Of a stretch of DNA of 64,000 nt, positions 2,041-58,798 are shown piece by piece. Position 1 is the first letter of the stretch; each line of letters opens with the position of its first letter. Below the pieces are notes generated by a model. The model ran no database searches, was not told the origin of the DNA, and was given only the letters and a program-made list of their open reading frames with translations. The stretch comes from Deuterostichococcus epilithicus (Eukaryota; Chlorophyta; Trebouxiophyceae; Prasiolales; Stichococcaceae), in the NCBI GenBank assembly GCA_033439295.1, contig JAVTLE010000013.1:310001-374000 (forward strand), in the 5' to 3' direction. Made by a program: the position numbers and the translations under genes.

Positions 2041-5000
2041 ATGTCGGCGCAGATGCCATTCCTGGGGGTGGATGGCGTTCCGCCAGGGCCGGTGCCGGTG
2101 CCAGCGCCGGCGCCCGGCATCGAGCCGCCCGACATCGTGGACACCCAGAGCTTCAACACAGGTGCATGATTTCTCTGGCACAGAGATGCTCACAAACCCA
2201 CGCAAGCAGCCTGTAGGCAGCGTTGGGGTGCGTTTGCATAGCATATCACCTCCTGATGTGCCAGTGGTCGTTCACACGCACATGCATCTGGCCATGCATG
2301 CAAAGCATGAGCCCTGCCTCCTGGATCGCTGTCACAGCTGCCTGGTGCCACGGTAGCTGTGGCAACAGCGGGCTTACAGGACTTCGCTACCGGAGGCCGG
2401 CGACCTCGACTCACGACTTTGCAGGGTTTAGATTTTAGGGTTATGAGGGACTGGACGCGATGCTGCTCGAGCTGGCCGCTGCCGGGCTCGTCGCCGCCTG
2501 CACGCCTTGTGGTGCCGCGGCTGGCGCCGTGGAGCTTGCCTGGGCTAGCACTCGTTCGTGAGGCTGGAGGAGACGCCCCCAGTCGAGCTGACCCCGCCGC
2601 TGACTCTGCTGCCGCCGCCGCCGTCTTCTGCAGGCCTGATGGTGCTGCTGCTGGTGCTGTGGAGCTCACTCGGGCACATGGCGGTGGGGCGCACAAAGTA
2701 TCTGGGCGAGGGGAGCTGCGCCTGCGCGCTGGGCCTGCTGTCGGGCCTGCTGCTGCTCATCCTGCGGCGCGCGACCAACATCGACCAGGAGGCGCTGCGG
2801 CAGCTGCTCACCTTCAACCCGGCCGACTTTTTCACGTGAGAGAAGACACGATGTGCCATTACTTGTAAGCTGATGTGCCCTGACGCTGAGAGGTTTTATG
2901 TGTTCCAGTTGCGCCAGGCGCTGGCCTCTGGCTCGGCCGCCTCCCACTTGGTGTGACGCTTCCACGCACCCTGGGTGACTGACGCTGGAGGCTGTCGGAG
3001 GGCAGTCCAAGGAGCACTATAGCCTTCACTGCTGACTGTTGCTCAGGCCGCTTTCTTCACGTGCGGCTTGGTCAGCTGCTGACTTCCTTGTTGGCACCTT
3101 AGCTGGCACGTGGGTGAGGTGAGCTGTGGGGAGCCGCCGATAGGCGCGATTGATATCTTCACAGGCGCATGCACTCTGCACCTGCTGCACCTTTTCAACG
3201 CTGCCCATCGTCTCATCCTGTCGAAAGCTGGGGCTTTGCGCTGTACCGGCTGGACGAGTGCACGCTTCATGACCCACCAGCTTGGCCGTCTTGAACACGC
3301 GCCTCATCTCGCCTGCGCACACGCATATAGACATACTGCTTCAAACCACCGGCGACGTTTTGACATTGGAAAGGAGGCTGCGGCAAGGGAATCTCTGGCC
3401 TCATCTTTCGTCAAAGCATCTGTCATACCCAAGTCGTCATTTGCGCAGGTACTTCCTGCCGCCCATCATATTCTATGCGGGCCTGTCCGTCAAGAAGAAG
3501 AAGTTTTTCCGCAACTTCGGCTCCATCGCCACGCTCGGCATCCTGGGCACCTACATCCTCTTCGCCGTGATAGCGCTTGGCCTGTTCGCCATCTCCAAGC
3601 TGCCCAACCTGCTCAACCTCACGGTGCGCCCGCGCTGCAGCTGTCCTTCAAACTTCAGGGCTGCCCTTGCAGGGGTCAAAGGGAACGTCTGCACGTCCAT
3701 TCCTGTCACGGTGATCATGAGGAAAGCTCGACATGGCCATCACCAGACGCCCCACGCGACGTGGAGCGGGATGCGCCTGGGGCCACCGCAGCAGAGGGCA
3801 GCGGCTTTGCAGGGCGGCGGCTTCCCCACCGCAGGACTGCCTGACGCCAGCGCGCCGCATCCGGCGGCGGACCACAGCCGTGGTGCTGCGTCTCCCGACT
3901 GTACCAGCGACCAGACTCTGACTGCATGCAAGCGGTTTCTCAATTGGTCGCGCTGCCTCCTACCGCTAGGACTGCCTGGCGCTGGGCGCCATCTTCGCGG
4001 CGACGGACACAGTGGCGGTGCTCCAGGTCATACGGCCGGAGGAGGCGGGCGTGCTGTATTCGCTTGTCTTCGGGGAGGGCGTCATGAACGACGCCACCTC
4101 CGTCGCGCTGCTGCGCGCGGTGCAGGTGTGCTCCATCGCGAAATGCGCCTGTGGGTCCTGTGGCACAGCACGGGATGCGGCTTTGTGGAGATTTCCCTCC
4201 TGGCAACGAGTGGACTGAGCAATCCACATGGGTTTTTACTGGCAGGGGTGCTGCTTGTGGCTCAGCCCTGCCAGCTGAACCCTGCCAGGGAGGGCCTTCC
4301 AGGCACTTGTCACTGCGCACCCCCGTGTCGGGCAAGGGCAGAGCAGCAGGCGCAAAGACTCAGTCTGTCGTCCCACTTGGTCTGCCGGCCCTTCCGCACG
4401 CTGGAGCAACAGCGCAGATGCAGTGGCTGCCTGCCATTGTTGTCACGCCGCGCCACAGAGCTACGGCAACAGCCATTGACACAGCTTGCTGTTGATCCTC
4501 GCATGCAGATGTTGTTCAACAGTATGGAAAGACTTGATGCGCATTCATCAAATGCATCGGATCATTCAAACATGTTACTGCTGCCCGCCACTCCACCTGC
4601 AGAGCTACAGTGCCTCCAACAGCGTGACGGAGACGTCCATGATCTCCATCCTGTGGGACTTTGCGTACCTGTTTGTGGCGTCGCTGGCGCTTGGCATGGC
4701 CTTCGGATTGGGCATCGCCTTCATCCTCAAGCTGCTGCGCTCACGCGATAGTCCACAGGCACCATTTCTTGCTTATCTTCTCTTGAATGTCCTCTTTTAT
4801 GCTCCATGCCTGCTCGGACACTGCCTGCCATCTCGTTGTGGCAGGCTGCTGCGAGTCCCATGTGCATGATGCATTGCCTCGAGCAGGACCGGTCGATCAT
4901 CCCAAGCTGCCTGGGCAAATGCGCACAACATCTTGAAGATGAGGAGTGGGACCTCCTTAAGGCACATGCTCGTGCACTACACTGGTCGTGTCTGCTGTCT

Positions 5001-8000
5001 GACGTCCATGTGGTGAGGGCGGTCGTCGTCGGGCCGACATATTGCTGCAGTGTGCAGCACGTTACTTCCAGCATATCGACTGCTGGCACTGCGCAATGTG
5101 CCCAGGCTGGCAGCCGCGATCGTGCTGACGCCAGAATGATTCGAGTTTGCGTTCCGCTCGCGGTCGGTCTGCAGGTAGTTTCACTACGGAATTTCCAATA
5201 AAAACGTAATCATAGAAGTACTTCTGCAGGAGGTGGCGCTGATCGGGATGCTGGCGTACCTGAGCTACCTGTGCGGCGAGCTGCTGGGCATCTCCGGCAT
5301 TGTGTCCCTCTTCTGCTGCGGCGTCGTCACCTCCCACTATGTGAGCGCACGGCTCGAGACGCTGACGTGACTCTCCAGACAGCTGCAAGCCGCTGTGCGG
5401 GTGCCACACAGCAAGCATGCTTGTGGTCCTCGCCAGTCGTGCCATCACCAGCATCTCTGCTGCGTGCGCACCTCTGCTTCCGGGTCAACATCGGACCAAG
5501 AGAGGGACCGGAAGTGTTACATCTGCAGAGGAGCCGCCAGGCGCTTACGATGCCTTGCACCACCGTGCAGGCGCTGCACAACGTGACGACGCTGACGCGG
5601 GCGACCACCGTGTCGGCATTCCAGACGCTGTCCTACATCTCCGAGGGCTGCATCTTCATTTACATGGGCATGGACACGCTGGACCCCGTCAAGTGGAGGG
5701 TGCGCTTTCGGGGTCAATCCTCCGTTGGGTGGTGGAAGGACCAGCCCCAATCAAGCGCACGATGCTGCCTTTCGTGAGGTACATGTGCCTTGGTAGTGTT
5801 TCACATCAGACCGTCGGCTGCTGCTGCAGCACCACGCAGCCTGCCTCAGGAGCCCTCGCCATGCTGCGAGAACAGGAGGGTGTTCTGCACTCCAACCACC
5901 TGCACACACGCAGTCACTGGACACTTCCATCATAGGTGCACTGCAGCAACGTCACCCAGCGAGACGGGCCACCAGCGGACGAGAGACCTTGTTGGTTTTA
6001 CTATCAACTCAAGTCGGCCTCGACTTGGTGTGCCCGTGCAGAACACATACCCGAGCGAGCTGGTGTGGCTGTTTGTGACGCTGCTGGTGCTGCTGCTGGT
6101 GGGGCGCGCGCTTTATGTCGTCCCGCTGGCGCTGCTGCACAACGTTTGGTCCCCCGAGCAGCTGTCCGCCCGCGACATCGTCGTCGTCTGGTGCGTCAGC
6201 ACCCCCTGTCGCCTCTGGGGCAGCTCAGGTCACGGTCTTCTCCTCCCCGAAGGGATCTGCAGCAGAACATCTAGGTGCACCAGGCTTTGCAAAAGGGGAC
6301 TGCATTCGCTCGGTGCGCAGCGCTGGCCGCGCAGGCTCGTAACTGCTGGCCCTCAATGAGCATTTGCACAGGAGCCGGAGGTCAGCGAACTGAAGTACGG
6401 ACGACACGCACTTGGATGTACGGTAGAAAGTCAAGGGCAGAAGAGGACTAGGAGCAGAACTCAAGGGTTGGCTGCTATCCTGGCACCAAACAGCTCTCCT
6501 TGCAGTGGGCGTAGTGTTTGCGCGGCGGAGTGCTGGTGGCGCTCAACTTGACCCGCACTTCCCATAGACAGTCATTCCAGAGGATAGGGGCAGAAATATC
6601 GGTCATGGCGCGCAGGTGGGGCGGCCTCATGCGCGGCGCGGTGTCGGTGGCGCTCATCTACCGCTACTTCGACCCGCACGGCGCCGCCGCACTGGACGGC
6701 CACCGCTCCACGCTCATCACCACCACGCTGCTGCTGGTGCTGTTCAGCACCATGGTGCTCGGGGGCCTGACCAAGCCGCTGCTGGACTACATACAGGGAC
6801 CGGCAGGTGCGGCTGTGCAGGGTTTGCGGGTTCAACGGTGAGGACAAGTCCACGCACGGACACTGTCAGTGCATTTCGGAGCTTTGCTTTGCGCGGCATC
6901 ACAGCCCTTGGCTCAGCAAGGCACGAGCAACCAGTGGGGGGCTGGCTGTAGGAAGGCAGCGAAGTTGAACGAACGAAAGCAGACCAGTGGGGCACAACAA
7001 AGCCCAGGGCAGTAGCGGTCTCGGGGCAGCTTGGCAGACACGCGATGTGTCTGGCCCGGCATGAGCGAAGGCCCTTTGGGCGTCATAACCTTATAGCACA
7101 CGCACTCACAGCCGAACCACCCCATAGAGAAGGCGGCTGCCATACACAGTGTCGTATCGAAGTGCTGTCTGCTGTCGTGGGCCAGTGTGTCGCCTGGCAC
7201 TCGGCGCAGCCCTGCCGATTGAGGCTGCCCCACTGGCGTGCTGGGCCGCTGGTGCGTTGTGCGAACCGAGGCGTCGTGGTGTCTCTAGAGCTACGAACTT
7301 ACGCCGGCAGTCTCCGGTGCTCGCCTCTCCCAGGCGGGGGCTGCTTGCGGTCAGCCACCCGTCGAAGGACGCCTCCAGCTGCAGCTTCGTTGGGTCCGGC
7401 CACCACGAACACGCTCGCTGCCGGCTGCTGCAGCACAGAGCGACCCGAAGGCCGAGCGCCAACTCAGTCGTTGCCGCCAGCCGAATCGGGCCGCATGTCT
7501 GCAAGTGCGTTGCAGCCGGCCAGGCGCCCGTGAGGGCGCGAGGCCGGACGGCTGATCTTGAACGAGTGCCACAGGCCCTCCACACGGCCGCTGGGGCCGG
7601 CTGGAGGCGGTAGTGTCGCGCGGGCCAGGCTTCTTCGCGGTAGGGGGCAGCACTGCACCGTGGCTGCTACAACTCCGGGCGCGTGCCCGGAGAGGGGACT
7701 TCTCGAAGGCCGCGCGGCTGATTCGCCTGCACGCGGCCCCCACCCTAGCCGGCCAGGCCCCCCACCCCGGCCCGGCGCGCGTGCAGACGAGAAGTCAGGG
7801 TGTCTGTGGAGAGAAAGTCAGTTCAGAGTCAGGATGTCCGCTTCCTTTCGGCCCTTGCTCTCGGCCCCCGAGGCGAGGCGCACAGGCTGGCAGCTGGTCG
7901 ACGCTGGTGGCGTGTGCGCTGTGCAGGCGAGCCGCTGAGCCACATGATGGAGCTCATGCCGCACCGGTTGCGGCGTCGCCGGCCAGGAGGCCCGCACGGC

Positions 8001-29546: not shown

Positions 29547-29581
<35 letters not shown>

Positions 29582-42044: not shown

Positions 42045-42095
<51 letters not shown>

Positions 42096-45000
42096 GCGGC
42101 AGCGGCTGCCGAACAGCGCAGCAGCATCAGCTGCAGGCTATGCACGATGCCGTCTCGTCTCAAGCAGTTGCGGTCAGGAATCTCGCAGCCAGGAGCTCCT
42201 GCACGCCCGACTCACAAAGTCCCGGTGCTCGGCGGCGCGGTATTCTGCCGACAGCGCCGCCACGGTCTCGCGCGCATCGTCGAACTCGTCCAGGCTCTGC
42301 TGCTGGTCGCGCCCCTCGCCAGTGTGGAACATCGGCCACTTCTCGTACTCGCGCACAAACGCCTGCGAGGTGAGTGCGCCGTGCCACTGAGCTTGGGTCC
42401 GGACACCTCCATGCGGCCTGATGCCGGAGGTTCGGCGGAACCGCGCAGGTCGCTGCAGAGCCCTGTGCATCAGCCCTGGGGCAAGCAGGCACCGGCCCAG
42501 ACGCCATGGCGTGGACATGCTGTGTGCAAAAAGTCCGGTGCGTTCTGCGCAGTCCATCCGTCCGCTGGGGTGAGCGATGCGCAGGCCGGGAGTCGCGAGC
42601 TCGCCGCCACGCGTGCCCTTCGCCGCCGCAGGGACGCCCGCACTCTCCTTGGGGTTGTCATGCTCAGGAGGGGCTGCACACACTCTGGGGTGGTCTGCAA
42701 CACCCCACCTTGCGCTCCATGAGCTTGTCGTACTGCCGCAGTGTGCGGTCCAGCAAGTGCCGGATGGAGGTGTGGTTGGCCAGCATCAGGCCGCTCACGC
42801 GGTGCGCCGCGGCCACGTACGGGCTCGCACGCGCCAAAGCCACCTGATCAGAAAAATTCGCATTCTCTAAAGTTCAAGCTTCATATCACCGTTCCGCGGC
42901 CATCTTGCCGTGGCTTTGCAGCAGGCACACAAGAACCATGCCAGCGCAAGTCCTGCCCTTATGAGGTGATCGAGCAGCAGGCGGCAGCGGCACGAGGGGC
43001 GCACAAGAGGCGGTTGACTCCTCGTAGTTGCGCAAACGTGTGAGAGGGCGAGTTTGAGCCTGCGGCCTGGGGCTCCGTGCCTTGAGTAGATGCCGGACGT
43101 GCTTCTGCGTGTGTTCGGTCCGTCAAAACCAACAATCATGTGCGCGCCTGAATGGAGGCGGGCGCCCAGTCGATGAAGCGCACCGCCTGCCGCTCCCTGA
43201 TCGCCGCCAGGCTCTTGTGCACCTGCCCCGGATCCACCTCCCCCTGTGCGTATGCACGTCTGGCGGTTGACGGCCTTCACAGCAGCGACAATATGACGAT
43301 CCGCAAGCTGTTGATGGTATTGTGCCTTGACCGGCCCCTGCATCCACCTCCCCCTGCGTGCGTATCGGCAACGAACATTGCCAGTGACTGTTCGTAGCTG
43401 ACGTGACGATCGGTGAACAGAGATTGACGGCGCCGCCCGGGCCGTTGCGCTGCATTCAAGCGGCTGCGGCTTGCTGTTGCACGGAGGCTTTGGGCAAGGG
43501 CGGCCTCACATCGTCCAGAGGGCTGTGGATGGGACCTGAGACGCACGTGCATCATCCCCTTCCCCCTTCTGCAGTCGTCTGCTGCCCCACTTCGCAGCAT
43601 GCGTACCGACCTCATCAGCAAGGCCTCCCTGTCGACTGCGCCAACGGCTTGCTGTATGTCATACGGGGGCCCACTCAGCGCGGTCCACAGATGGCGGCTG
43701 CGGTGCTTCCATGCACAGCAGTCTGCACAGTGACGCTGCCTCCGAACACGGCTACCGGCGCGTTTGCAGGAGGTGCAGGCTGCAGCATCGAGGGCCGGGA
43801 CCACAGAAGCTGGGTTTTCATTTTATTCCCGTTTCGAATCTTTTGAAACCCACTCGGATGATGTGGAGCAGCGCAATGTGTTTGGACTGCTCCGCCGAGC
43901 GGCGGCCGCCGGTCGCGTGCGCCGACACCATGGCATTGCGCTCCTGCAGCAGCCGCCGCTGCACGTCCAGCACCGTCGTGCGCCGCACCCTCTGCAAGGA
44001 ACGGTGGAACGTAACAAGCATGACGGTAACCCCTTTGGTGGAGCTTGGCACCAGAGAAGGGGTCGCCAAAGCAGTGCCGAGATGCTTCCGTGCAGAAACG
44101 GTTGCCTGGCCGTCAGCCACGACTGAAGCTTGGTGGAAGCCAGCTCCAAAGCACGCTGGACATGTATGATCCTCAGTGCAAATAGGTTGCTCGCCTGCTG
44201 CGGCGCAGCGCCGGCGGCGCCTGCCGCTGCTGTGCCGTCCGCCGGCGCCAGGCCCGCTGCCGGCGNGNNGGGCGGNGCCCGCGCCGCCGCCGCAGCCACC
44301 GCCGGCGGCGCCGACAGCGGCGTGTATCCGGCCATGAGGAAGTGGCAGCGCGGCAGCGGGATGAGGCCAGCCATCAGTCCCACCAGGCTGTTGTTCATGT
44401 AGCCTGCGGCGGGTGCAGGATGCAGGTTCAGAGGTTGTCAATGCAGGTTCAGGCGTTGTCAAACCAAGGCCTCTCCTTGCATGGGCAAGGCGCTGCTTTG
44501 ACCAGTCATCTATGTGTAGGTACAGCTGCCCAGGGATGCAACAGAGGCATGGGCGGCAGTGCTGTGCTCTTCCTGTCTCCGGTACCAGCCGCGCATTAGA
44601 ACTGCGGCGGCAGCACGGCTGTGGCGGCAAGGCCCAGACCTGGGTATCGCAGCGTCGCAGTCGAGGCCGCCATGACCGTCGCCACCAGGCTGTTGATGTG
44701 CTGCGTGAAAGTGGGAGTCGTTCAGCCTTCCCAGGTACTGGACACGCATCGCCTTGGCTTACCCTGACTTGCACCATTCTGAAAGTGCGCCGCCGTGCCA
44801 AAGGGGATCAGCCAGGACGTCGTCGTACGCTTTCCACCTCTGTGAGCATCAGCCTAGGGCACCCAGAGAGCGCTGAAGAGATCAAAGCGCGGCACGTAGA
44901 CCCTAAACCCCAAACCCACCTGGACGCTGGGTGTGTCCGTGTGCAGCTGCTGTGTCGCGATGCGGTTGAGTGCGGTGTTGTCCAGCACCTGCGCAGCAGG

Positions 45001-47358
45001 ATTCGGGGTCCAGTATGAGTACAGGACCTGCAGCACACGCGTGGGGCCCTCCGGCTTCTGAGCGCCCAACCAGGGGCCCGCTGCGGCAGGCAGCGGCAGG
45101 CGGCCGGCGCAGCGGTCCCAAGTCAGCAGGGGAAGGTAGCGCCGCCTTGCAGGGACGGCGCCGGCATGCAATCGACAGCATGACATGCAACACGGATGCG
45201 GCAGCGGCAAAAAGGCCTTGAATTAGAAAGTGCTATATGAAAAATAAGTGCACCACGACCGCGTCGGCGTCGAGCGCCAGCCGCTTGAGCGTCAGTACGC
45301 TATTGTACGGCTGCACCACCACGTCGCTGGCGTCCTCGTTCTGGTTGGGAAACACGCTGCAGGGCAACACAAGTCACATTCTCGGAGAATTGGGTTGCAG
45401 GGCCGCAAGGGCAGCGCAGCTGGGCCACCATGTCGCTGGTGTCCTGGCTGTAGCTGGGAAACAGGCTGCGGTGAAACGCTGCAGATGTGCGGGCGGCTTG
45501 ATGTAGGACCGGATCAAGCTGCCCGCTTGATATGGGTCCGGAGTCGTTGCCGCCTGTGCCGCAGCAGCGCTGCTGCGACAGGCCTTGAGACGAGACGCCA
45601 GTCCGCATTGTGCGCCATGCCTTCACATGCTGCAGGCCCCTGCCGCCGGCCCGCATGCTCGCCCCCGGCGCCTCATCTCCCTCATGATGCCCGCGTCGCC
45701 AGGATGCGATTGCGGTGCTGACTCCCGTGACTGCCGCCATGCCCCCAGCATGACATGACGCAATCGCACATGGTCAAGTGCACACAGTGCCAAATTCTGC
45801 CCTGCTGCTTGGGCACAACTGGCCTGCCACACAGCTGTATACCGCACGCCTGAACAAAACACCTGCAGCAGCTTTCCTGGGCATTAAAGTCGCTGAAAAC
45901 CCGCCGCCAGAAAGCGCACCTGAACGTCTGCAGCAGCTTTTTGGGGTACCGGTCCGCAAGCAGCTCAAGCAGATAGGAGCCCATGCCGCTGCCGGTGCCG
46001 CCGGCGATGCTGTGCGCCAGGCAAAACCCTTCCAGACTGTCCGCGTAGCCCGCCTCTCGGTCTGCAGGGGTGCAGATGTGGTCGATCAAGCTCGAGGGAA
46101 TCGAGGAACCATGATTCGAGGGCAGTGTGCGCCAGGTGAAAAACCCATTTCGGCTGTCCCCGAAGCCCCCAGCCTCCCGGTCTCTGGATGTGAGGAATAA
46201 GTCCCTTCATGGTCTGTACAGCTAGTACTCTCCGGTATGCCCCCATGTGGCAGCAGCTGGCACCGGCGGCCTGTTTTGGCGGTGGTTGAATATGCTGGCC
46301 TCGGCTGGTTATCACCCGGTCTGATGCAGCCTGTGATGTCCGATCACACCCTGGCGACAGCCTGGTTGGATATTCCCTGCAGGCTGCAATGGGAAACTCT
46401 GTCGAGCACGGTGTCCTGTCTGGGAGCCTCCATTCACAGGCGCTGTCGCCACCAAAACCAACTGTCTCTCCCGTGGGCGGGGTATGGAAACGCATGTCTG
46501 AGGTTTGGATCAGGGTTTGTGCTCACCGATCATGTCCAGGATGTCTTCGGAGGCCTCCTCCGCCTGGTGGTAGCCCGACGCCCAGTTGTTGCCGGCGCCG
46601 CCGCCATGCGCCGAGAGGAACACGTTCTCCGGGTTGAACAGGTGCCGCACCTCCCCGTTCTGGATGCCATTAATGACCCTGCACGCACCCAGGGACGGCT
46701 GATTGGGGGCATGGACGCACACGACTCCGCCATGCAGGCGGAAATTTTGGGGCCGCTTGAGTATGGACCGGCTCTTGCACCGAAGTGGCAGCCCCGATTC
46801 CTGCTTTGCGGGTGTGTAGCTCAGGCGGCTGCCGACAAGCTCATGCAACGGCAGATCGGCAGGACTTTCGTCATGTTGCATGCGCATGTGCGCCCACCGT
46901 GGCTCAAGGTCCAGCAGCAGGGCGCGCGGGGTGTAGCGTCCGTCATCCGCCTGGTAGAAGAACACCTCCTTGCAATCGCCGCCCTGCGCGCACCGTGGTT
47001 GGCGGAGCGGGTCAGAATCTGTCTGGACTTCGAAGGCGCCAGTGCGCCTTCTACGCGCGCTTGCTGTGATATGCTGCTGCCGTGGCCGAGCTTGACCTGC
47101 AGGTCGCTGGCCGACTCACCTCTGTGGCAAAGTCCTGGAGGGAGCCGTCGGCGGCAATGCCATGCTCCCGGCACAGCTGCACATGCGGCAGAACACTCAG
47201 CCGTGGAGAAGCAGGTGGGTCTGATGCGAGCCCACACGTCTGATACTGGTAGATCATGGAAGATCCAAGCACGAGCGAAGCCGCACCGTCTTCCAAAATT
47301 CGGTGCCGATCTGATTGCCAGCCTGTCCGACCTGCAGCGAGATGATCTCGCGCGGCAT
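41817..47358 (-). CDS. TUBG: Gamma-tubulin
   Basis: GTP-binding tubulin that nucleates microtubules in the gamma-tubulin complex at basal bodies and spindle poles. Fourteen complement exons: 47287-47358, 47120-47176, 46898-46983, 46527-46678, 45920-46061, 45254-45356, 44920-44988, 44640-44700, 44195-44403, 43854-43991, 43148-43243, 42709-42843, 42216-42362, 41817-41909; all in phase, about 519 residues (usual length 450-475). Landmarks are [18 protein letters not shown] at the start, [15 protein letters not shown], the GTP loop [27 protein letters not shown], and [15 protein letters not shown]. The excess length is an Ala/Pro/Gly-rich insertion after GYTPL (exon 9), just before RRTTVLDV, and that insertion contains four ambiguous bases. 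Exons 9 and 11 end at GC donors. Introns before exons 5, 6 and 11 contain decayed copies of the next exon. The Ser-rich C-terminus is unusual. Confidence 0.95.
42046..42093 (+). repeat. (CAG)16 trinucleotide repeat in the last gamma-tubulin intron
   Basis: Sixteen uninterrupted CAG triplets on the plus strand lie between gamma-tubulin exons 13 and 14. They are not in a coding exon in my model. Probably length-variable. Confidence 0.95.
43320..43353 (-). repeat. Decayed copy of the head of gamma-tubulin exon 11
   Basis: On the complement, an acceptor preceded by GATACGCACGCAG is followed by GGGGAGGTGGAT, as at the real exon (43243), whose acceptor is preceded by CATACGCACAG. Similarity then fades. 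The duplicated piece therefore includes the intron end as well as the exon start. Confidence 0.75.
44266..44276. other. Ambiguous bases within gamma-tubulin exon 9
   Basis: N occurs at 44266, 44268, 44269 and 44276, inside the very GC-rich part coding the Ala/Pro insertion. The frame is kept on both sides. The exact residues here are unknown and a sequencing or consensus error is possible. Confidence 0.95.
44420..44461 (+). repeat. 21-base tandem repeat, two copies
   Basis: Two 21-base units beginning ATGCAGGTTCAG and ending GTTGTCA, differing at about two positions. They lie in the intron just before gamma-tubulin exon 9. Confidence 0.8.
45420..45465 (-). repeat. Decayed copy of the head of gamma-tubulin exon 6
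   Basis: On the complement, a CAG acceptor is followed by 46 bases about 78% identical to the start of the real exon at 45356 (shared TGTTTCCCA, AGGAC, CCAGCGAC, TGGTGG). The frame reads [15 protein letters not shown] instead of [15 protein letters not shown], and the conserved [11 protein letters not shown] that follows is lost. Confidence 0.85.
46120..46185 (-). repeat. Decayed copy of the head of gamma-tubulin exon 5
   Basis: On the complement it follows the real exon starting at 46061: GACCGGGAGGC, GGGGACAG, GGGTTTT and CCTGGCGCACA line up with GACCGAGAGGC, GCGGACAG, GGGTTTT and CCTGGCGCACA. Insertions break the frame. A still weaker echo may lie near 46430-46480. Confidence 0.75.
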
Positions 47359-48039: not shown

Positions 48040-51000
48040 TCAGCCGCTGCTGCTGTCGGACGCCGGCGAGCCGACCGCCGACATAGAGGCGGAGGTGCTG
48101 CCTACTGGCGCGCGGGCGGCATGCGCCAGCGCCTCTCCACGGTGCTCCGACTGCTCTGTGACCGTGTACCCCGCGCCCACCTGCCATCACCATGCAAAAG
48201 CTCGCGTCAGCTTTTTGCAGCAGGGTTCTGCTCCGACTGCTCCGCGACCATGTGCCCCGCGCCCACCTGCCAGAGAATGCAGGAGTCTGCACCGGGGTGC
48301 TGCATCAGAGTTCTGCATCACGACACCACCGACTCAAGGATCCGAAGCTGGTCGCCGCCACCCGCCGCGATGGCGTGCGACTGGTGCCGTGCCAAGTTTG
48401 GGCACAGCCTCTGGAGGGACACCAATGTGTCCCTGCTTCACAAAAGGCGGCACCAGGGCCCGCGCGGTCCTCGGCACAGCAGATCACCCAGCAGCGACTA
48501 GGAAAAGTCAAACTGCATGCGCGCCTGGCAGTCCCGCAGGATGGCGTGCGGGTTGACGCGGACGCCGTCGCAGAGGATGGAGCCCTGGATGTGGGCACCG
48601 TCGGCCACGTGCACGTTGGCCATCAGGACGCTGTTGATGACCTGCCGACACGGGGAGGCAGTGTGGGTCTCCTCTGGATTTCGCAGACAGTGCGACAGTG
48701 TCGCAGACAACATCCAAGAGATGTCGCGCTGCGCCCGGGAGCGGCGCTGCGCCCGGAGGAAGCGGCGGCTCAACGCACCTGCTGAGCGATGCAGCTGTGC
48801 CCCAGTCCATGCACTCGCAGTTTCGCAAGGGGTCGCCTGCAACGCAGCAGATGACAGGCAGCCTGCAGCGAGGAGTTGACATCCAGCGACCCCGCCGCAG
48901 GCGCACCCTGACGCTGTTGCCGAGCACGACGCCGGGGCCGATGACGCTGCGCTTGACGCTGGTCTTATCGCCGATATCGGCGCCGCCGGCGATGACGCAG
49001 CCGGCACCCACGGTGGCCTTGGCGCCCAGCCGCTTGGGCGGCTCCATCCAGTTCTCGTGGCGCGGGTTGGACGGCGGCCCCAGCAGCTGTACCGCCAGCG
49101 TTGGCGTCGCCACATCCCTGCAATGATGAACCGAGACCGATCGGGACCAGTGGCCAGCCTTCGTTCGTTCGCGACGACGGCCCAAAAAGCTGCACCGCCA
49201 GTGCCGGTGTCGCCCATGACCCTGCGACAGACGATCAACCCGATGGTCCGTGATCAGTATCGACTGGCAAGGGCAGCAGTGCATAAAACCGGAAACGCCA
49301 GCGCCAGCGCTGCCACACCCTTGGCGCAACTTACCTGCCATCTGCAACCAAGCGAATGACGACGAGCTGCTCAAAAGTGCTCTGCTGGATGACGACATCT
49401 GCCGTGTTGATGCACCCTCTCTTCCGCTTCAGTTTCAAGCTTGAGCAGGTTTCTGCGCCGTTGGCTTGCTGCGGCAGCATCAGCAGACCTGAAGGCCCTG
49501 GCGCCCGCGCAGCCTCCAAGCAGCCACACTGCATCTCCCGGCGACGTGCGCCTCGCAGCACCTGCATGTGGTGTCCGCGCAGGTTTGGAGTCAAAACAGG
49601 CGGACCCAGTGTCCCCTGGTCCCGCCCCGCGCACCAACAAAATCCGCACCTGTTGATCTCCCCGTAGTTGTGCGGCGTGTTGGCGCGCGCGCAGAAGTGG
49701 TCGCCGCCCGCCATGTAGGCGCACACCGCGCCGGCGGCCGCCCCCTGCGACTGCCCCCCGCCGCCGCCGCCACCGCCGCCTCGGCTGCCGCGGTAGGCGT
49801 GGCTCATGTCCGCCACGAAGTCTGCGGGGCAGACCAATGCTAGTCGCAGCGAGAACATGTGCATCGGCAGCTGGGTGATGATCCGGAGATGCATTTGACC
49901 CCAGGGCCAGGTACATCCAACGGCGGTCTTCGAGCCAGGTAGAGGCACTCACGAGTGCACTGTCAGCCGGCTGAGGGCGCGCACCCTGCACGGACGTGGA
50001 CAGGTCGTCGCTGAGCGTCGACCCCGTCGCCGTTGGGTTCGAGGTGGCTCTGCAGCAACGTTCCTGACAGTGACACTGGGCGGAACAGGGAAGGCTGCAG
50101 GCGGCGCACCCCGCACTGACGTGGACAGCCCATTGTTGAACGCCGCCTCCAGCTTGAGGCTGTCCGAGCGCAGCGCCTGCAGCTGCGCAGCCGGGCTGTC
50201 GAACTGGTGGCGCACCAGGTATGGCACCACGTCCTGAGCACGCACCGGCAGAAAGAACTGGCTTAGAGAGTCCCAACAGTCCCAACCTAACCTCGGAGGG
50301 TGGTAACACCGAGTGCAGCGCCTGCATCTGCGCTGCAGGGCTGCGAGGGCGCCGCACCACGCCCTGCGCCAGCAGCAAGAAAGCGAGCTGGACGGCAGAG
50401 CATCTGACGACGGCGGCTCCGAGCTGTGGAGGTGTGCAGCTCCGCTGCTGCGCGGCGGAGCCGGCAAGCTGCTGCCGCGCCAGATGCGAGTAAAGACAGG
50501 TTCTCCAGCACGCCCAAGGCAATCTCGGCCAGCCGGGTAGTGTCAGCCAGCAGGAGGCCTCCACCCTCCAGAAGGAGGCAGGAGAAGCACCAAGAGCTGC
50601 TGTGGCAGCTGCAGCAGATAGGTCCAGGAGGGTCACATGATGACGAGCTACCCTGGGTACTGCTGTGGCTCCGAGCTCGGGGCCCCACCTGGAGGCTCGA
50701 GGCTGGCGTGACCGAGCCGCACCTCCAGCCCCCCGGACTCCAGTTGCTGTACAAGAAGTCCAAGGCCCAAAGCGGAACAACTTCTACTGGACGCATCTAT
50801 ACCATGTTCAGGGTTTAGAGTTTACAGGTTGCCCCACCTGCTTGAGGCTGGCGTGGCCGGGCCGCGCCTCCAGCGCCGCCAGCAGCGCCAGCCGGTCGAA
50901 GACGTAGCAGTGTGCGTCGGCCAGGTCGGTGCGCAGGGTGACGGCGCCGGCGCGCCGCAACGCCGGCAGCGGCAGCCCGATGTCCCGCCGCGCGTCCGGG

Positions 51001-52827
51001 CTCGCTGCGAAGAACAGCAGCGTCTGCCCCCGCTCGTCCAGCCCTGTTTACGCAACGGTTCAGCGTGCGGTCAGGTGCAGTGAAGCGAGGAAGGTGCAGT
51101 TCAGTAGGAAGCAGGAAGCACCCAGCAAACACACTGGCAGCTGAAACTGGCAGGGCGTCAGGTCAAAAGTAGTGGGGCGCCGCCGCGGCCGGGGCCGCCA
51201 CAAGCAATGCCGCTCGGTCGCACTACAAGCACACAGGAGTGCGGGCCCGCGCACCGACGTAGTCGACATTCTTGGGCGCCTTGCCAGGCTTGCACTCAGC
51301 GCTGGCCAGGCCCCTGCGCGGCGCAAGCAGGCTGGTGGCTGCCGCGCCCCGCACCTGTGGCCAGCATGGGAGCGCCCCTAAAACGATAACCAGGGTTTCT
51401 CAGGGATTCTTGTCCTAAATATGCTTCACGTGGTAAGTACAGTCACCCTGCCGCGGCACGCCGCTTTGGAGCGGGAGCACCCAGCCAAGGCGGCCCGAAC
51501 GCGCTGTTCTCATTGGATCAATTTCGCCGCCATGCAACAGTGTCCGCTGTCGCACCCGCTGTGCAGGCACCAATCTCCGTGAAATGCATGCGACAACAGC
51601 CCAACGCCCAGCGGCACGTGCGAGATGAGGTCTGCAGAGGCATTCACGCCACTGCATGATGTCAGGTCTCTGTCGCAATGTTCGTTCTCTGAGGAGAAGA
51701 CGAACTCTTCGCACCGTGTATGCTGCCGGCATGGCACTCAGCGGCACCATCCGACACCAGGTCCGCAAAAGGACTGCCGCCGAATGTTCTCACATGTCCA
51801 CACAGCAGTGTCTCCTCTGAGATAGAGGGGCAAACTGTGTGCGCAGCCAGCACGGCGCTGAGCAGCACATCTGAGCACAGCAATGTGTCCTTCAGAGAGG
51901 AGAGACCGGGGCGCACGGTGTGCGCAGCCAGCACGGCGCCGAGCGGCACATCCGAGACGAGGTCCGCGGACAGGACTGCCACCGCGTCCGCCACCAGGCT
52001 GTCGGCGACCGCCCGCAGTGCGTCAGCAGAGCCCAAGCCTTCGCCCACGGCACGCACCTGCGCGCATTGGAGTGTTGCGGATCGCGGTGTTGCGGATCGG
52101 GGCCCTCGGAGGAGCCCCTGAAGGTGGCTGTGAAGCAGTGCAGCTGGGAGCAAGGGGCGTGCGAGACGGCGGCTGGAACTGTGCCCGGTGCGCCGGACCT
52201 GATAGGCCAACCTTTCATCCCTGCAGAGCTGCCCAAAGACTGTCAAGCCATGCTGAAGACGAGGCCAGGAACAGATGCACTGCGCTGCACACACCTCCAG
52301 GTGCAGGCCGCCCTCGTACTGCTTGGCGATCCAGGACTGGACGCGCGCTGCTGTCTGGTCCCCCGAGCACACCTGCAGGGCACGTCACGGAAGCTCGTGG
52401 GCGGTTTGCACGACAGACCCCAGGGTCCGGGGCCAGCTGTGGGAAGGCAGGGATGTGCACGACGGGCAAGGTTCAGAGCTCACATTGGCGTCGGAGGGGC
52501 CGCCAGCGGGGAAAGCTCAGGCACGGGTTGCCGTCTGCAGCTGCAAGGGCCTGCGCCGGCCCCATGCGTACACGCAGACGTGGCAGCCTTTCACGCCAGC
52601 TCAAAGGGCAGCAGGAAGCATTGAGAGGCTCTGCAGGGGTGAGCCAAACGCCGCACCACCAACACGTGGTGCACGCCAGAGTGCTCGATCATGGCGAGCG
52701 GAAAGGACAGCAGCGGCCGGTTGCCGACGGGCAGCAGCGCCTTTGGCGTGGCCGGCCCGTTGAGCGGGTACAGCCGCGAGCCGGTGTCGCTGGCCAGGAT
52801 GACGGCCTGCGGCGCCGGGCCGCGCAT
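48040..52827 (-). CDS. EIF2B3: Translation initiation factor eIF2B subunit gamma
   Basis: Subunit of the guanine-nucleotide exchange factor for eIF2. Ten complement exons: 52657-52827, 52295-52372, 51917-52057, 51255-51354, 50838-51043, 50110-50233, 49650-49821, 48907-49117, 48525-48641, 48040-48180; in phase, about 486 residues. The N-terminus is a nucleotidyltransferase-like fold (QAVILASDTGSRLYPL, PKALLPVGNRPLLSFPL) with the usual loss of the strict catalytic motif. DALRAVADSL, LSADLVSDVPL and RTDLADAHCYVFDR follow, then left-handed beta-helix repeats (GAGCVIAGGADIGDKTSVKR, SVIGPGVVLGNSV, GAHIQGSILCDGV). A Gly-rich loop interrupts exon 7. The intron after exon 9 has a GC donor. The last exon exists in three tandem copies; the nearest upstream one (from 48266) is also open and would end at 48207. 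Exon 3 has three decayed downstream copies. ATG 52827 was chosen; an ATG at 53025 is in frame. Confidence 0.92.
48190..48352 (-). repeat. Two upstream copies of the last eIF2B gamma exon (units of about 86 bases)
   Basis: The copy starting at 48266 has a CAG acceptor and about 34 of its first 38 bases match the real exon at 48180 (GTGGGCGCGGGG, GAGCAGTCGGAGCA). It stays open to a TGA at 48207. A third, much more eroded unit starts near 48352. The spacing of 86 bases between starts shows a tandem array. Confidence 0.8.
49166..49221 (-). repeat. Decayed copy of the head of eIF2B gamma exon 8
   Basis: On the complement, CGCAGGGTCATG, CGACACCGGCACTGGCGGT and CAGCTTTTTGGGCCG parallel TGCAGGGATGTG, CGACGCCAACGCTGGCGGT and CAGCTGCTGGGGCCG of the real exon at 49117. 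The frame is lost. Confidence 0.75.
49968..50008 (-). repeat. Decayed copy of the tail of eIF2B gamma exon 6
   Basis: Downstream of the real exon end (50110), the complement again reads CTGTCCACGTC.GTGC.GG followed by a GGTGCGC donor-like stretch. It duplicates the exon end together with its 5' splice site. Confidence 0.65.
50310..50368 (-). repeat. Decayed copy of the head of eIF2B gamma exon 6
   Basis: On the complement, GCAGGGCGTGGTGC and CAGATGCAGGCGCTGCACTCGG correspond to TCAGGACGTGGTGC and CAGCTGCAGGCGCTGCGCTCGG of the real exon at 50233. Part of the middle is deleted. Confidence 0.7.
50808..50828 (+). repeat. Short telomere-like tract
   Basis: TTCAGGGTTTAGAGTTTACA resembles degenerate TTTAGGG repeats. 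It is intronic, ten bases from the end of eIF2B gamma exon 5. Confidence 0.5.
51575..51887 (-). repeat. Three decayed copies of the tail of eIF2B gamma exon 3
   Basis: The end of exon 3 (ADLVSDVPLGAVLAAHT) is echoed three times in the next intron: about 51831-51887 (SDVLLSAVLAAHTV), 51706-51785 (FADLVSDGAAECHAGS) and 51575-51650 (ADLISHVPLGVGLLSHAF). Each keeps parts of the donor region. Divergence and frame breaks show that none replaces the real exon. Confidence 0.8.
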
Positions 52828-53923: not shown

Positions 53924-56900
53924 ATGGCACAGGCTCAGCCAAAACTCGATTTCAAGGCGCCAGAGGGCCAATACATGTGCGCTCCATGCACGATGTTCGC
54001 ATCATACTGAACTCGGAGCGTCGTGGCATCTTGCCCATAAGGACCATGGACACGAGGGTTGAGGATAGAAGACTGAGCAAGCGTCTCTGGACGCTTGCTT
54101 GCCCGCCAGACACGCGAGCACATGTTACGTCGTGCCGCTCTCGTTCAGGAAGTACCCAACGGCCGCCTGGCTGCCGTGCCGAGCCGCAGGCCGCGCAGCG
54201 AGCGGCGGTGTGTGCTGCACCCCAGGCGTTGCTCAAAGAACAACCTCCCGATGTCCTGCCGTCGGCGCCCTGCTTTGCAGGCTGCACAGCGAGCGCCCAT
54301 CGCGGGCGGCCTTCTCGGCGTCCCGCACCTGCCGCCTTACGTTCGCCGAGCTGCCCGAGGGCGGCCGCCCCGGCGAGCGCGGCGGCGGCGCCTACGTCAT
54401 CTTCAACGCGCTGGAGTTCCTGCACATCACAGAATACTCCAACCCCGACCGGGTGCGGCGCAAGCCAGACCCGTCTCCAGACGCGCTGAAAGCCGCTGGC
54501 CTTCCACCGCTGAAGACGGGCACCCCGCTGCATTGCCCGGCTGACGTGGATGCTGCTGGCGCCAAGCCCTGGACACGGGGGCATAGCGTGGCATGGCATA
54601 CACTGCAATCTCGAAAATCGTCAAACCGCCAGGGGTGCAACTCCACCAGTCTCATTGCACGTATGCTTCCCTCACAGGAGCCTGTGCGGTCCGTGTACTG
54701 CGGCACTGGCGGCGCGGGCCCCAACACGTGGCCGACCTGCCACTCGCACGCGCCCGCGGCGGACGACATAGACCTCCTCATCGGCCTCAACACCGGCGAC
54801 GGTGGGTTTCCCATCACAGACTCTTCCCTTGACTCAGCAGGGTACGAGGCGTCAGATTGTCATCAGATTGTGCGAGCTGTGTGCCTGCTCCTCGATCTCA
54901 CCGCCGGCGTTGCGGTGCAAAGCCGCCGCTGTGCCGTTCAGTGTGCCTCCCGGGGCCGCTGCCCGCAGCTTATGCCACTGCGCTTGCAGCAGGGTGGCAG
55001 CGGCGCGGCGGCCAGAGTGCTGTGTCCACGAGTCCAGCTCATCTGCAAGGGATGCCACCGCTCGACCGTGAGCATTCGATCGAGCCGCAGTGTTAGTGAC
55101 GTCCTGGCAGGCAATGTTGCGGTGCTGCTTGCAGCAACACCCTCTTCAAAATCGCATCTGCAAGGAGAGGCTGCGGCCGTTTACTCGTGATCGGTCGTTG
55201 AGAGGGTGCCGCAAGGCTGCTGGTGGGGCGGGCGGCGGCGGCGTGAGGCAGCGTGCTTTTCCAAAATGCACTCCGATGCATCTGCAACGAACGTATATGA
55301 CCGCTCACTACTGTTTGTTGCATTGGGATGCAGTGCTGGCGACGTCGCTGGCGGGGCAAGTCGCGGCTGCGCGGGGCGACCATCGGCGGGCGGCGAGCCT
55401 GCACTTCAACGTCGCCGGCGCCGCCGACGGCAGCCGTGTGACCAGCATCGCGTGGCTGTCGCCCGAGCGGGGCACATTCGCTGCCAGCCATGCCAGTGGC
55501 GCGCTGTTCTTCTACCAGAAGAAGGTGCGCTGGCTGACGCCCGGCACGCTGCCATCTGAAACTGTCTTTTCAGGAGGCATCGTTCACAAGGCGTTGTTCA
55601 AGAGGCATCATCTTGGCGGGTGTGCGGGACGGTGCCGTGAGCGAACGGTCGGGCCGGGCCTGCAGCGGGCGGCGACTGAGCCACCACCTCGCAGCCGCCG
55701 CCAGCGCATCGACAGGCCTGGCGCTCTGCAGCTCGTGCATCCTCAAGCATCATCGAGCGTCGACCACCAAGCCCCGACTTGGAACGAGCCCAAGGTGACA
55801 GCCCGTGCAGGAAGAGGAGGTGTCAACACACGAGATGCCCAGTAGCTGAGGTAGCCAAACCTGCACAGGGACCGGGGCAGGAGGGCGGCAAGATCGCCAC
55901 GCAGCTGCGGTCCATTGTCAGCGTGCCTGGCGCGGAGGCGGCGGCGACCATACGCACCGGCGCGCCCGTCAACGCGCTGGCGGCGGCGCCTGACGGCACC
56001 CGGCTGGCGGCTGCCTGCGCGGACGGCGTGCTGCGGGTGTATGATGTTGCCTCACAACGCCTCGTTGGCGGCTTCAAGGTGTGTATACCCCGGAGACCCT
56101 GGGAACCCTGTTGGTTGATATGAGGGGGGTGCCATGACCTCCTTGGCTGGCTGCCATTGTGACGAGCTTAAGAGGTGCAGGGCGGCCTTCTGACGCGCCG
56201 AGGATGTTACTGTCCATGAGCGTGCAGAGCTCCCGGCTGGCTCTTGCACATGAGCCGGAGAGTGGCTGCCCGGCGGTGCTATGGCAGGGCGCCGCTGCTT
56301 TGCTGCTGCAGTGGCGGCGGCGCCAATGGTGGCACCTGCGCAGTTGTCCTCGCACAGGCTCTTGGGCAGGCTGTGACGCTGTGCCGCAGTGTCACCGACC
56401 CGCAATGCTAGTGGCTGCATTGGCCACCCTGCCCCGGATTCAGACATCAATCGAGGCCTGCCTGCTGCCACCCTGCCCCGGATTCAGACATCAATCGAGG
56501 CCTGCCTGCTGCCACCACTGACATGGCTGCTGCCATGATGAGGGCGGCCCACCCTGAATGAATCTTTGAAGTCTGTGCCGTGCGCTGCAGAGCTACTACG
56601 GCGGGCTGCTGTGCTGCGCCTGGAGCGCCGATGGAGAGTTCATTGCCACAGGGGGTGAGGACGACCTGGTGTGCGTCTACAGCGTTGGAGACCGCGCAGT
56701 GGTGGCCTGGGGCGTGGGGCACGCCTCCTGGGTCTCTGCAGTCGCCTTCGACCCCTGGTGCGTCATCTCGGCGACAGTTGTCTCTTTCCGAAACCCTGCT
56801 GAGCTCGAAAGGGAAAGGTCCGATAGAGGCACTTTAGTCAGAAGTTGGATTTAGTTAATGGCAGGCCAACCCTCCTGGGGCTTCGCCGCCGCCTCTGGCA

Positions 56901-58798
56901 CCTGGTGGGTCGGTCACATACAGGCAGTCAACTGCCGACCTCGGAACAGCCATCGATTTTGGATCGTATCTGCGAGTCAGGGCAGCTGCGGATCCGGCCT
57001 CCCGGGTCTTCGAGCTGTCGCTTTTGAACCCTGGTGCGCCGGCAGCACCGCACCCGGGAGCTCCTGCCGCTCCGTGGCGGCAGCAGCACCCAGTCAGGGG
57101 CACAGGGACACGCCCCTGGAACCTGCTGCGGCCTGCGACTCCTGGTGCGTCGGCCGCGGGCCGCGGGCCACTTGGACGATGCGAACGGGTGACCGTGAGA
57201 CGGACGGTGGCAGCAGCGGCCAGTCGGGGGCATCCGGGTCCTCCTTGCATTGGGTCGCCTGATTCGCGGCCCTCGGCCCCCTGGTGAGTCGGCCGCACAG
57301 CCCGCAAGTCCCAGGGTCCACTCCAGACAGTCAGCCGGACACAAGCTTGCCAACCCGTCAGTTTTTCCGGGGCGAGCCGCCTCCTGTGCGCGGCGGCTCA
57401 GTGTGCCTGGTAGCCGGCGGGCAGTGGAGCCACATGGTGCCCCGGGCACGCCGGCCTGGAGTGGCTGCTTTGCAGCCGTCCCGAGGCGTGTGGCCGGGGA
57501 GCACGCCACCCCGAGGCTCCTCGGGAGGCTCTTGCACTTCCCTGAGGCCGGGGACTGTGCACGCAACGCATTCGTGACCGACGCTGCGATCCGCGTGTGA
57601 AGCGAAAGCGGCGTGGCCCCGCACAGGGCGCACAGGGGGCAGGAGGAGGCGGCGCCCGGGCTGCTGCGGCTGCTGAGCGGCGCGCAGGACAGCCAGCTGG
57701 CGCTGTGGGACTTCGACCTGGGGCCTGAGGCGCTGACGCCAATCAGGTAGGGTTTATGCATTTCCAATGTCCCAGGACCGTGGTGCCGTGTGCGGTCACT
57801 CTGTGCACGAGTGCTCAGGTGGACGCAGGCCTGACGCTCCAGCTGCCGCCAGAGTCTGCACTACCATGCTGCCTGCTGCACCCCAGCTTCCCAGCTGGAG
57901 AGCAGGTGCTCTGCGAAGTCACTTGTGTGAAGGGGCAAGCCCGTCGCGCTGCGCAGCCCGAGGAGCGGCGGCCCGGCGGCGGCGGCGCCGCGGCAGCTGT
58001 TCCCTGCCGCCGACAGCAGGCGCGCCCCCTGCTCCCTGCATCGTGCCAGTGCTCTGCGTCGGTCGCTGGCCAGCCTCGCTTTTCGCACGCCGACTGTGCT
58101 TGGGGCAGTGGGGCTGATTGAGCACACCATCCTGGCGGCAGGCAGAACGGCGCGCCCGCCGGCGGTGGCGCAGTGGCGGCGGCGAACGGTGCCGTCGCGC
58201 CTTCAGCCCCGCATGCTGACATGGACCTCCAGCCGCCCGTCAGGATACGCAAGTGCGCGACCCCCCCCCTTCTTCCCCAGGCGGGGGTTTCCGCCCATCA
58301 CCCTGGATCGAGCAGGCGCCTCACTGCTGGCTGCATGCATGGTCGTGCACTCTACCGGCATCCAGAGTGCAACTGCCAAAATGCTGGGCTCTGGGCGGCT
58401 TGAGTTCTCCGTGCCCTGTGTCTCCCGGCAGCCCTGCCAGCATTAGTCGGCATCGACACACGTCTGCACAATGCGTGCAGGCTCCACGTGGAACCGGTGT
58501 CAAGCGTGCTGCCAACGCCCGGTGCCCTGTTCCTTGCCAGTCACAGCGGCATAGTGCGCTGCTGGCGCCGACCGCCGCGGCCGGCTGCGGGAGGACCGCA
58601 GGTAAGCGCAGCAGCAGGCCTGCAGTTGCCAACACGGGGCGGAGGAGTACCTATGCTCTGGGTAGTTGGCCACCACCTCATCTGAGTACTGTTTTGAGGA
58701 TCCTGAACTGTTCGCTGTTTTAATTACAGGCTTCGACAGAGCCTGGGGAGGAGGGAAACGCAGCTCGCAAGAGTGCCGATCAAACGGTGGGGAGGTAG
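53924..58798 (+). CDS. WDR20: WDR20/DMWD-like WD40 protein
   Basis: Ten exons (53924-53976, 54281-54452, 54678-54801, 55334-55524, 55869-56078, 56591-56757, 57627-57746, 58142-58252, 58481-58601, 58730-58798) are in phase and give about 445 residues. The order follows WDR20: [32 protein letters not shown] with [48 protein letters not shown] with [44 protein letters not shown], then [11 protein letters not shown] and [12 protein letters not shown]. In animals WDR20 activates the deubiquitinases USP12/USP46; the fungal relative CreC partners a USP46-type enzyme in carbon repression. The same partnership here is inference. The variable loop is shorter than in animals. Intron 6 holds a tandem array of decayed exon-6 ends. 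Confidence 0.88.
54187..54212 (+). repeat. Probable decayed copy of the head of WDR20 exon 2
   Basis: CGCAGGCCGCGCAGCGAGCG mirrors the TGCAGGCTGCACAGCGAGCG that opens the real exon at 54281, about 90 bases upstream. The match is short. Confidence 0.5.
56424..56511 (+). repeat. Exact 44-base direct repeat, two copies
   Basis: A 44-base unit starting CCACCCTGCCCCGGATTCAG is present twice in direct tandem (56424-56467 and 56468-56511) without mismatch, followed by the first bases of a third. It lies in WDR20 intron 5 and must be recent. Confidence 0.95.
56869..57290 (+). repeat. Tandem array of decayed WDR20 exon-6 ends with donor sites
   Basis: Four units of about 110-140 bases repeat the end of exon 6 (56721-56757) and its donor. 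Their cores are at 56869-56911, 56992-57040, 57109-57151 and 57239-57290. Each ends in a CCTGGTG donor-like motif such as CCTGGTGCGTC or CCTGGTGAGTC, preceded by eroded CTCCTGGGTC and TCGC.TT.GA blocks. The spaces between them also echo the GGGGCACGCC part. Confidence 0.75.

Follow-up and report, generated by a model that had tools for sequence, protein, structure and literature searches.

Intron length change is usually attributed to mobile elements and small insertions or deletions. A 64,000-nt stretch of the Deuterostichococcus epilithicus genome (hereafter, the window) raises the question of whether introns also grow by copying the edges of their own exons. An earlier note on this DNA had described eroded copies of exon edges inside the adjoining introns of five genes (NHX, PARP, gamma-tubulin, eIF2B gamma, and WDR20) and had proposed short tandem duplications across splice junctions, hidden by splicing. 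We searched for such copies in the window and in three other regions, C5, C10, and C12, the last being a held-out region of 20 kb; altogether, four contigs were covered.

Gene models were predicted from the sequence by our own gene finder, which had an amino acid–based start and was trained on 264 kb of the genome. Since the gene finder fuses adjacent genes (29 "genes" in 264 kb), some of the predicted introns may be intergenic. The predicted splice motifs are CAG/GTGCG for donors and TGCAG/G for acceptors. From 543 predicted introns, 473 were kept after exclusion of those with lengths outside 70 to 1500 nt or with an adjoining exon shorter than 30 nt. Near and far exon edges were compared in 465 introns of 80 to 1200 nt taken from the first gene models.

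When the window was compared to itself at offsets of up to 700 nt and scores of at least 36, all 22 local pairs were direct and none was inverted. According to the first gene models, 15 of these pairs run across the edge of a predicted exon; the others are located within exons, within an intron, or close to an edge. At a score of 32, the ratio of direct to inverted pairs was 23:2 in the window, 12:1 in C5, and 32:1 in C10 with low-complexity sequence removed, and 31:2, 31:18, and 38:7, respectively, with such sequence retained.

At scores of at least 28, exon starts matched their own introns in 22 cases among the 465 introns, compared to 1 case for the reverse complement of the own intron, 1 in 1395 for random introns, and 1 in 462 for nonadjacent introns of the same gene. 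Exon ends yielded 7 matches in the 465 introns (controls: 1/465, 3/1395, and 2/462, respectively). The near edge of an exon matches the intron, while the far edge of the same exon did not in either the exon-start test (0/221) or the exon-end test (0/221). In the larger set, 45 of 473 introns carried a direct copy straddling their own acceptor (34) or donor (17), as opposed to 5 of 473 when length-matched introns were swapped between genes; inverted copies were at background level. When only exon sequence was aligned, 27 acceptor and 10 donor copies were found, versus 1.6 and 1.8 with swapped introns. These counts (45, 27, and 10) include weak straddling matches deep in the exon, with edges 39 to 108 nt from the junction, which may be due to chance. 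The identity of straddling matches was 73 to 100%, and all matches of at least 90% were 29 nt or shorter. The presence of worn copies of the adjoining exon edge in introns is thus confirmed, the similarity of introns to their flanking exons being far above that of swapped, random, and nonadjacent introns. The copies recur beyond the window, in 7 of 183 introns in C5 (swapped control, 0), 24 of 181 in C10 (swapped control, 4), and 2 of 34 in C12.

Within the window, copies were located in each of the five genes (Table 1). The arrays that had been claimed are present as well, as four-unit arrays after exon ends 51917 and 56757, the latter copying the end and donor of exon 56591–56757. Spacings between units vary in both (81, 121, and 130; 147, 127, and 115). 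An extended alignment suggests that the copy at 49173–49225 may have another unit upstream. The copy at 50682–50732 was excluded from the set of 473 introns owing to a predicted 24-nt exon next to it. A minisatellite, i.e., an array of units of constant length, was considered and rejected given the uneven array spacings and the single extra copy per edge in 38 of the 45 copy-bearing introns. The copy at 3825–3887 was mistaken for an exon by the first gene model, which calls for caution in gene finding and read mapping.

Table 1. Exon-edge copies and other tandem duplications in the window.
Feature	Positions	Strand	Offset or period (nt)	Identity	Remarks
NHX, acceptor and start of exon 2634–2835	2498–2536	+	130	82%	AG lost in copy
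NHX, acceptor and start of exon 3970–4125	3825–3887	+	134	77%	Frame broken
NHX, copy of 6630–6659, near start of exon 6616–6806	6519–6548	+	111	83%	Intronic
Start of exon 28321–28437	28516–28671	-	228, 136		Two weak intronic copies: 28634–28671, 28516–28534
PARP gene, intron-only tandem duplication	35684–35886	+	Period ~100	80%	
PARP gene, start of exon 37275–37467	37035–37100	+	242	77%	Intronic
PARP, CAG and start of exon 38784–38905	38652–38707	+	129	86%	Intronic
Gamma-tubulin, start of exon 43184–43243	43330–43365	-	112	86%	Intronic
Gamma-tubulin, acceptor and start of exon 45254–45356 (SVFPNQ...)	45419–45477	-	109	78%	Intronic
Gamma-tubulin, AG and start of exon 45920–46061 (DREAG...)	46126–46183	-	120	76%	Intronic
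eIF2B-gamma-like gene, start of exon 48907–49117	49173–49225	-	104	78%	Intronic
End and donor of exon 50838–51043	50682–50732	-	149	82%	
eIF2B-gamma-like gene, end of exon 51917–52057	51597–51875	-	81, 202, 332		Array: 51801–51875, 51710–51782, 51597–51638
WD40 gene (WDR20 of the earlier note), array	56871–57151	+	147, 274, 389		Units: 56871–56911, 56997–57038, 57105–57151
Intron before exon 56591–56757	56423–56516	+	44 nt x 2.1	Perfect	Young tandem duplication

The best explanation of these copies, and in our view a likely one, is tandem duplication of short genomic blocks across splice junctions followed by drift. A block would comprise the last 35 to 100 nt of an intron and the first 15 to 85 nt of the next exon, with a mirrored arrangement at donors. 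The mRNA would be unaffected provided that splicing uses the outer site, which is the downstream acceptor or, in the mirrored case, the upstream donor; the surplus exon edge would end up in the intron, add one period to its length, and then drift. The outer site is probably the one used in vivo. Alignment of the predicted gamma-tubulin to human gamma-tubulin revealed no insertion at two of the exon starts with a copy.

The duplicated block would typically be ~113 nt long (~72 intronic and 41 exonic nucleotides). In aggregate, the intron tail that precedes the copy is similar to the real tail of the intron (z = 6.9 over 22 cases), the resemblance being individually significant in a minority only (2633, 6615, 49118, 77846, and 63647). 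Exon sequence past the copy showed no similarity to the spacer (z = 0.5), which is what a breakpoint of the duplication would give. Intron-only tandem pairs with offsets in a similar range (63 to 233), multi-unit arrays, and a younger array across an exon edge in C10 (see below) also favor this model. Each of the 19 single-period acceptor blocks contains at least 35 intronic nucleotides, while uniform breakpoints would place 7.4 of them below 35; selection may have retained only blocks with a complete 3′ splice signal. Acceptor copies outnumber donor copies (27:10, P = 0.008), a surplus that has no simple reason. The DNA process was presumably either slippage during replication or the repair of nicks or breaks lying near one another. 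In plants, repair of nearby breaks or nicks yields head-to-tail duplications of tens to ~100 nt, and the blocks seen here are likewise head-to-tail and of similar size. We know of no description of such plant repair duplications being concentrated at splice junctions.

The earlier note knew of no description of this phenomenon at such density, and in our literature search the closest precedent was a single case, the potato RdRp gene, which gained an intron when a stretch across an intron-exon boundary was tandemly duplicated (Ma, Lan and Niu 2016, PMC4974935). In this single and recent event, the duplication crosses the acceptor and supplies the second copy with branch site, tract, and AG. The upstream copy of the exon was for the most part retained as exon, and a second intron was created through a cryptic donor. 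A figure legend in the same paper records an 83-bp duplication inside an intron. Compared to this account, our copies likewise point to a genomic tandem duplication spanning the acceptor, with nearby direct blocks of intron tail and exon head (tail homology being individually significant in a minority). Unlike in potato, we take the copies to lie entirely within introns; they are decayed, occur in many genes and sometimes in arrays, and lengthen existing introns. Judged from the gamma-tubulin alignment and from read-through of the copies (see below), probably no new intron was gained and no exon copy was kept in mRNA.

Since one of the two copies is held still by protein constraint, the copies contain an internal clock. 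The substitution spectrum (AT>GC at 95 of 423 sites; GC>AT at 101 of 918) implies a GC content of ~67%, compared to 62 to 64% in the genome, and substitutions at the three codon positions (0.135, 0.213, and 0.218) show no third-position excess. A spectrum near genome GC together with the lack of such an excess indicates that the copies drift like noncoding DNA. The timing was less simple. Duplication at a constant rate followed by drift was simulated and rejected: it predicts many young full-length copies (~35%), and by this measure 0 of 31 were observed, although an array at 6687–6854 of C10, which has a period of 66 and a 94% match and crosses an exon edge, would count as young. Therefore, while a junction-spanning duplication hidden by splicing is the best-supported model, its plain constant-rate version does not hold. 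A burst fitted the excess of straddling copies but not identity and length together.

It is conceivable, if rather doubtful, that intron growth in this lineage included an episode of ~110-nt block duplications that a process linked to transcription or splicing directed to exon-intron borders. The exon edges would then be datable fossils of that episode, preserved in almost one-third of the 300- to 600-nt introns. More generally, duplication might be aimed at exon-intron junctions (e.g., through transcription- or splicing-linked nicks), or mainly the exon edge might be copied, instead of blocks placed at random in genes. Several observations point this way. In 19 of 26 acceptor matches with scores of at least 30, homology begins within 12 nt of the junction, and in 12 of 26 the intron-side extension is below the 5% point of expectation. 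Counting against the block model itself, the intron half escapes recognition in the majority of individual copies even though the exon half is 72 to 95% alike (at acceptor 38783, the intron tail scores 8.0 versus a null of 8.4), and similarity drops at the junction more steeply than a twofold rate difference allows (mean extension, 4.8 versus 16.7 expected). Among best matches scoring at least 30, straddling and intron-only copies stand at 34:9, while random placement combined with detection gives 1.15 to 1.28:1. However, intron tails do match in aggregate, as shown above, and a single-age burst alone lifts the straddling share (3.6:1 at a divergence of 0.25). In addition, exon halves mutate on one side only and intron halves on both, so that the exon half is easier to see. 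We regard aimed duplication as unlikely.

The copies could instead have a function in the regulation of splicing, as decoy acceptors or as alternative starts of exons. Of 22 copies, 20 have an AG no more than 3 nt from the copied junction; every one of these 20 AGs outscores the median intronic AG, and 6 at least match the real acceptor (e.g., NHX 3969). Offsets lean toward multiples of three (15:8:5). The copied codons themselves contain no stops (0 in 443 codons versus 4.1 expected, P = 0.014), at variance with the claim that frames are broken in nearly all copies. That claim stands when a copy is read through to the real acceptor: 25 of 28 copies are not readable in frame from an AG to that point, and 3 keep the AG and the frame without a stop. 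Yet this read-through is open in 14 of 28 copies, close to the 41% of control introns, and the codon-position pattern is unlike that of coding sequence. The retention of AG, striking in the first count, weakened to 10 of 13 once the AG was left out of the alignment score, which is near neutral decay; GT was kept in 2 of 6. We consider a function in splicing improbable.

Recurrence of copies across many introns would also be expected from introner-like or other mobile elements, or from assembly artifacts. Introners (PMC9860276) are dispersed families and, as proposed here for junction duplications, a genome-scale source of intron sequence. In contrast, among the best candidates scored, three whole introns searched against the 46.8-Mb assembly were all single-copy and matched only themselves, except that the one containing the PARP copy at 38652–38707 also matched its adjacent exon, 38784–38905. 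A mobile-element origin was rejected for these three introns. The longer copies, 73 to 87% identical, in a single orientation, and found in regions on four contigs, are unlike assembly errors, and we hold this whole group of explanations to be very improbable.

In the Drosophila cases (PMC2891723), the duplicate turns into a new intron with duplicated AGGT at its boundaries; the likeness lies in a short tandem duplication with exon sequence that is later spliced out. In such a Rogers-type gain, the intron itself would be the tandem duplicate of an AGGT-containing exon stretch. Donor and acceptor motifs have CAG/G in common, so proto-splice sites are common, and there is one weak near-fit (C5 intron 64675–64778; length, 104; offset, 98; score, 26). 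However, the two flanks of an intron, at its donor and at its acceptor, resemble each other no more than shuffled pairs do (mean, 2.12 versus 2.03), none of 444 introns reached a flank score of 14 (0.25 expected), and the offset is smaller than the intron length in all 34 straddling matches scoring at least 30. In our reading the introns pre-existed, and this origin was rejected as scarcely credible. Copying from spliced mRNA by reverse transcription and recombination, suggested by homology that often starts at the exon edge, is just as hard to credit and was rejected, since the flank of the copy is unlike the neighboring exon (z = −1.6 over 26) and similar to the intron tail (z = 5.3).

Junction-spanning duplication would bear on intron length. 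Copies were found in 30 of 104 introns of 300 to 600 nt, compared to 12 of 345 shorter ones, and the median length was 391 nt with copies and 227.5 nt without. Detectable units, counted as one period per best match, make up ~5% of intron bases (6578 of 133,732 nt), too little to justify calling them a main source of intron sequence; they help explain the length of some introns. With ~8% of introns overall (about one in twelve) carrying a copied edge, growth by junction duplication becomes measurable. The copies also offer a natural experiment in splice-site choice by the spliceosome where two similar sites lie ~110 nt apart.

Exon-intron boundaries were predicted with a purpose-written simple gene finder trained on this DNA sequence alone, which learned CAG/GTGCG as the donor motif and TGCAG/G as the acceptor motif. 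In the refined models, the median intron was 233 nt and the median exon 135 nt. The main data set of 264 kb comprised the window (C11:310001–374000 of a eukaryotic assembly of 46.8 Mb in 21 contigs; GC ~62%) and 100 kb from contig C5 and another 100 kb from contig C10, while 20 kb of contig C12 was held out for testing. Pfam domains found in the window (Na/H exchanger, PARP, nucleotidyl transferase in the eIF2B-gamma-like gene, and WD40) agree with the gene calls of the earlier note to the extent of the domains, the names WDR20 and eIF2B-gamma being provisional. The gamma-tubulin prediction matched animal gamma-tubulin at E 2.7e-132.

Decayed copies of adjoining exon edges, described for several window genes in the earlier note, are present in introns: at both edges, matches to the exon's own intron exceeded those to control introns. 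In the initial gene models, with 465 introns, the 70-nt start of the downstream exon matched its own intron at score ≥28 in 22/465 cases, compared to 1/465 for the reverse complement and 0/221 for the same exon's far edge. Random introns matched in 1/1395 comparisons and non-adjacent introns of the same gene in 1/462. Upstream-exon ends matched their own introns in 7/465 cases (controls: 1/465 reverse complement, 3/1395 random, 2/462 non-adjacent, and 0/221 far edge). Self-BLAST of the refined models detected a direct copy straddling the exon-intron junction in 45/473 introns (34 with acceptor copies, derived from the downstream exon start, and 17 with donor copies, derived from the upstream exon end, some having both) and in 5/473 length-matched swapped introns (acceptor 3, donor 2). 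Inverted matches occurred in 4 and 3 introns versus 6 and 5 in the swapped control. By region, straddling copies were found in 14/109 introns of the window, 7/183 of C5, and 24/181 of C10 (swapped controls 1, 0, and 4), and in 2/34 introns of the held-out C12 region. The share of copy-bearing introns is uneven across regions (L009–L028), as the C5 and C10 values illustrate. Stricter alignment of exon sequence only yielded 27 acceptor and 10 donor copies, compared to 1.6 and 1.8 in controls. All 22 local pairs in the window that were ≤700 nt apart and scored ≥36 were direct and none inverted; at score 32, with low-complexity matches removed, direct:inverted ratios were 23:2 in the window, 12:1 in C5, and 32:1 in C10.

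Published work describes a single case of tandem duplication over a junction in potato (PMC4974935) and intron gain through exon duplication (PMC3443670, PMC2891723). Junction copies in ~8% of one genome's introns were not found described in the literature searched, mostly outside subscription journals. 

The acceptor-side offset (the distance from copy to original) had a median of 119.5 nt, with quartiles of 107 and 150. In 19 single-period acceptor cases, the mean block comprised 72 intronic and 41 exonic nt (offset s.d. 17.5), and two four-unit arrays were seen in the window. Copy-bearing introns were longer (median 391 nt versus 227.5 nt without copies, p 1.7e-9): copies occurred in 12/345 introns below 300 nt, 11/56 of 300–400 nt, 19/48 of 400–600 nt, and 3/24 longer ones.

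Such copies would arise if a block of intron tail and exon head were duplicated in tandem in genomic DNA. The sequence preceding a copy should then resemble the true intron tail, and the exon past the copied part should be unlike the spacer. The former resemblance was observed (z 6.9 over 22 cases, the signal coming from a minority of them), and no resemblance of the exon past the copy end to the spacer was found (z 0.5 over 22 cases). Rogers-type introns, gained as tandem duplicates of an AGGT-containing exon stretch, are not the source, since donor and acceptor flanks of one intron were mutual duplicates in 0/444 cases. An mRNA origin would predict likeness to the neighbouring exon, which was absent (z −1.6 versus 5.3 for the intron tail, n=26). 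Whole-genome searches with three of the introns showed each to be single-copy.

Genomic tandem duplication at a constant rate fits poorly. It would leave ~35% of detectable straddling pairs long and ≥85% identical, and 0/31 were so; the pairs had a median identity of 0.80, and their alignments spanned a median of 0.36 of the offset. Straddling exceeded intron-only matches 34:9 at score ≥30 (1.15–1.28:1 expected), acceptor copies exceeded donor copies (27:10, p 0.008), and the intron half decayed over twice as fast as the exon half. A past burst explains this in part: it accounts for the lack of young copies and for the surplus of straddling matches, yet fails to reproduce identity and length jointly; duplication targeted to junctions is possible. 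Four tandem repeats had a period ≥40 and ≥90% match, and their periods (44–66) lie below nearly all old copy offsets.

Mismatch rates between copy and exon were 0.135, 0.213, and 0.218 by codon position, and the substitution spectrum roughly fits genome GC, so the copies are not conserved as protein-coding sequence. Compared with a solved protein, the gamma-tubulin prediction had no insertion at two exon starts with copies, the sole alignment gap being a single residue further inside. No stop occurred among 443 copy codons, against 4.1 expected (P 0.014), and the offsets leaned to multiples of three (15:8:5); both are weak hints of an early phase in which copies were read. An AG lay near the copied junction in 20/22 cases and was exactly retained in 10/13 under the stricter alignment. 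Intronic parts <35 nt were found in 0/19 acceptor blocks (7.4 expected), a deficit that may be overstated if the exonic portion has been shortened by decay. We read it as selection favouring blocks that give the downstream acceptor a complete 3′ splice signal. The NHX acceptor pair is well suited to testing how splice sites are chosen.

Features located in the window and in C10
Position	Strand	Feature	Observation
178–1063	−	Predicted ubiquitin-conjugating enzyme	Pfam UQ_con; presumably a SUMO E2, UBC9-like
3833–3834		NHX, copy acceptor	GCAG, score 6.6
3968–3969		NHX, real acceptor	CTAG, score ~0; weaker than the copy acceptor
38371–38783		Intron	One further whole-genome match, its own adjacent exon
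45356		Gamma-tubulin exon start	Copy present
46061		Gamma-tubulin exon start	Copy present
56423–56516		Tandem duplication, intron of WD40 gene	Perfect, 44 nt, 2.1 copies; most nearly perfect with period ≥40 seen in the window
C10 6687–6854		Period-66 array	94% match, young-looking; best match measured at twice the period
32172–41056	+	PARP gene	Predicted N-terminal part resembling a UBC-type domain, upstream of the PARP catalytic domain; long Q/A-rich tail predicted
44162–44403	−	Predicted alanine-rich insert in gamma-tubulin	Contains undetermined bases, XX in translation
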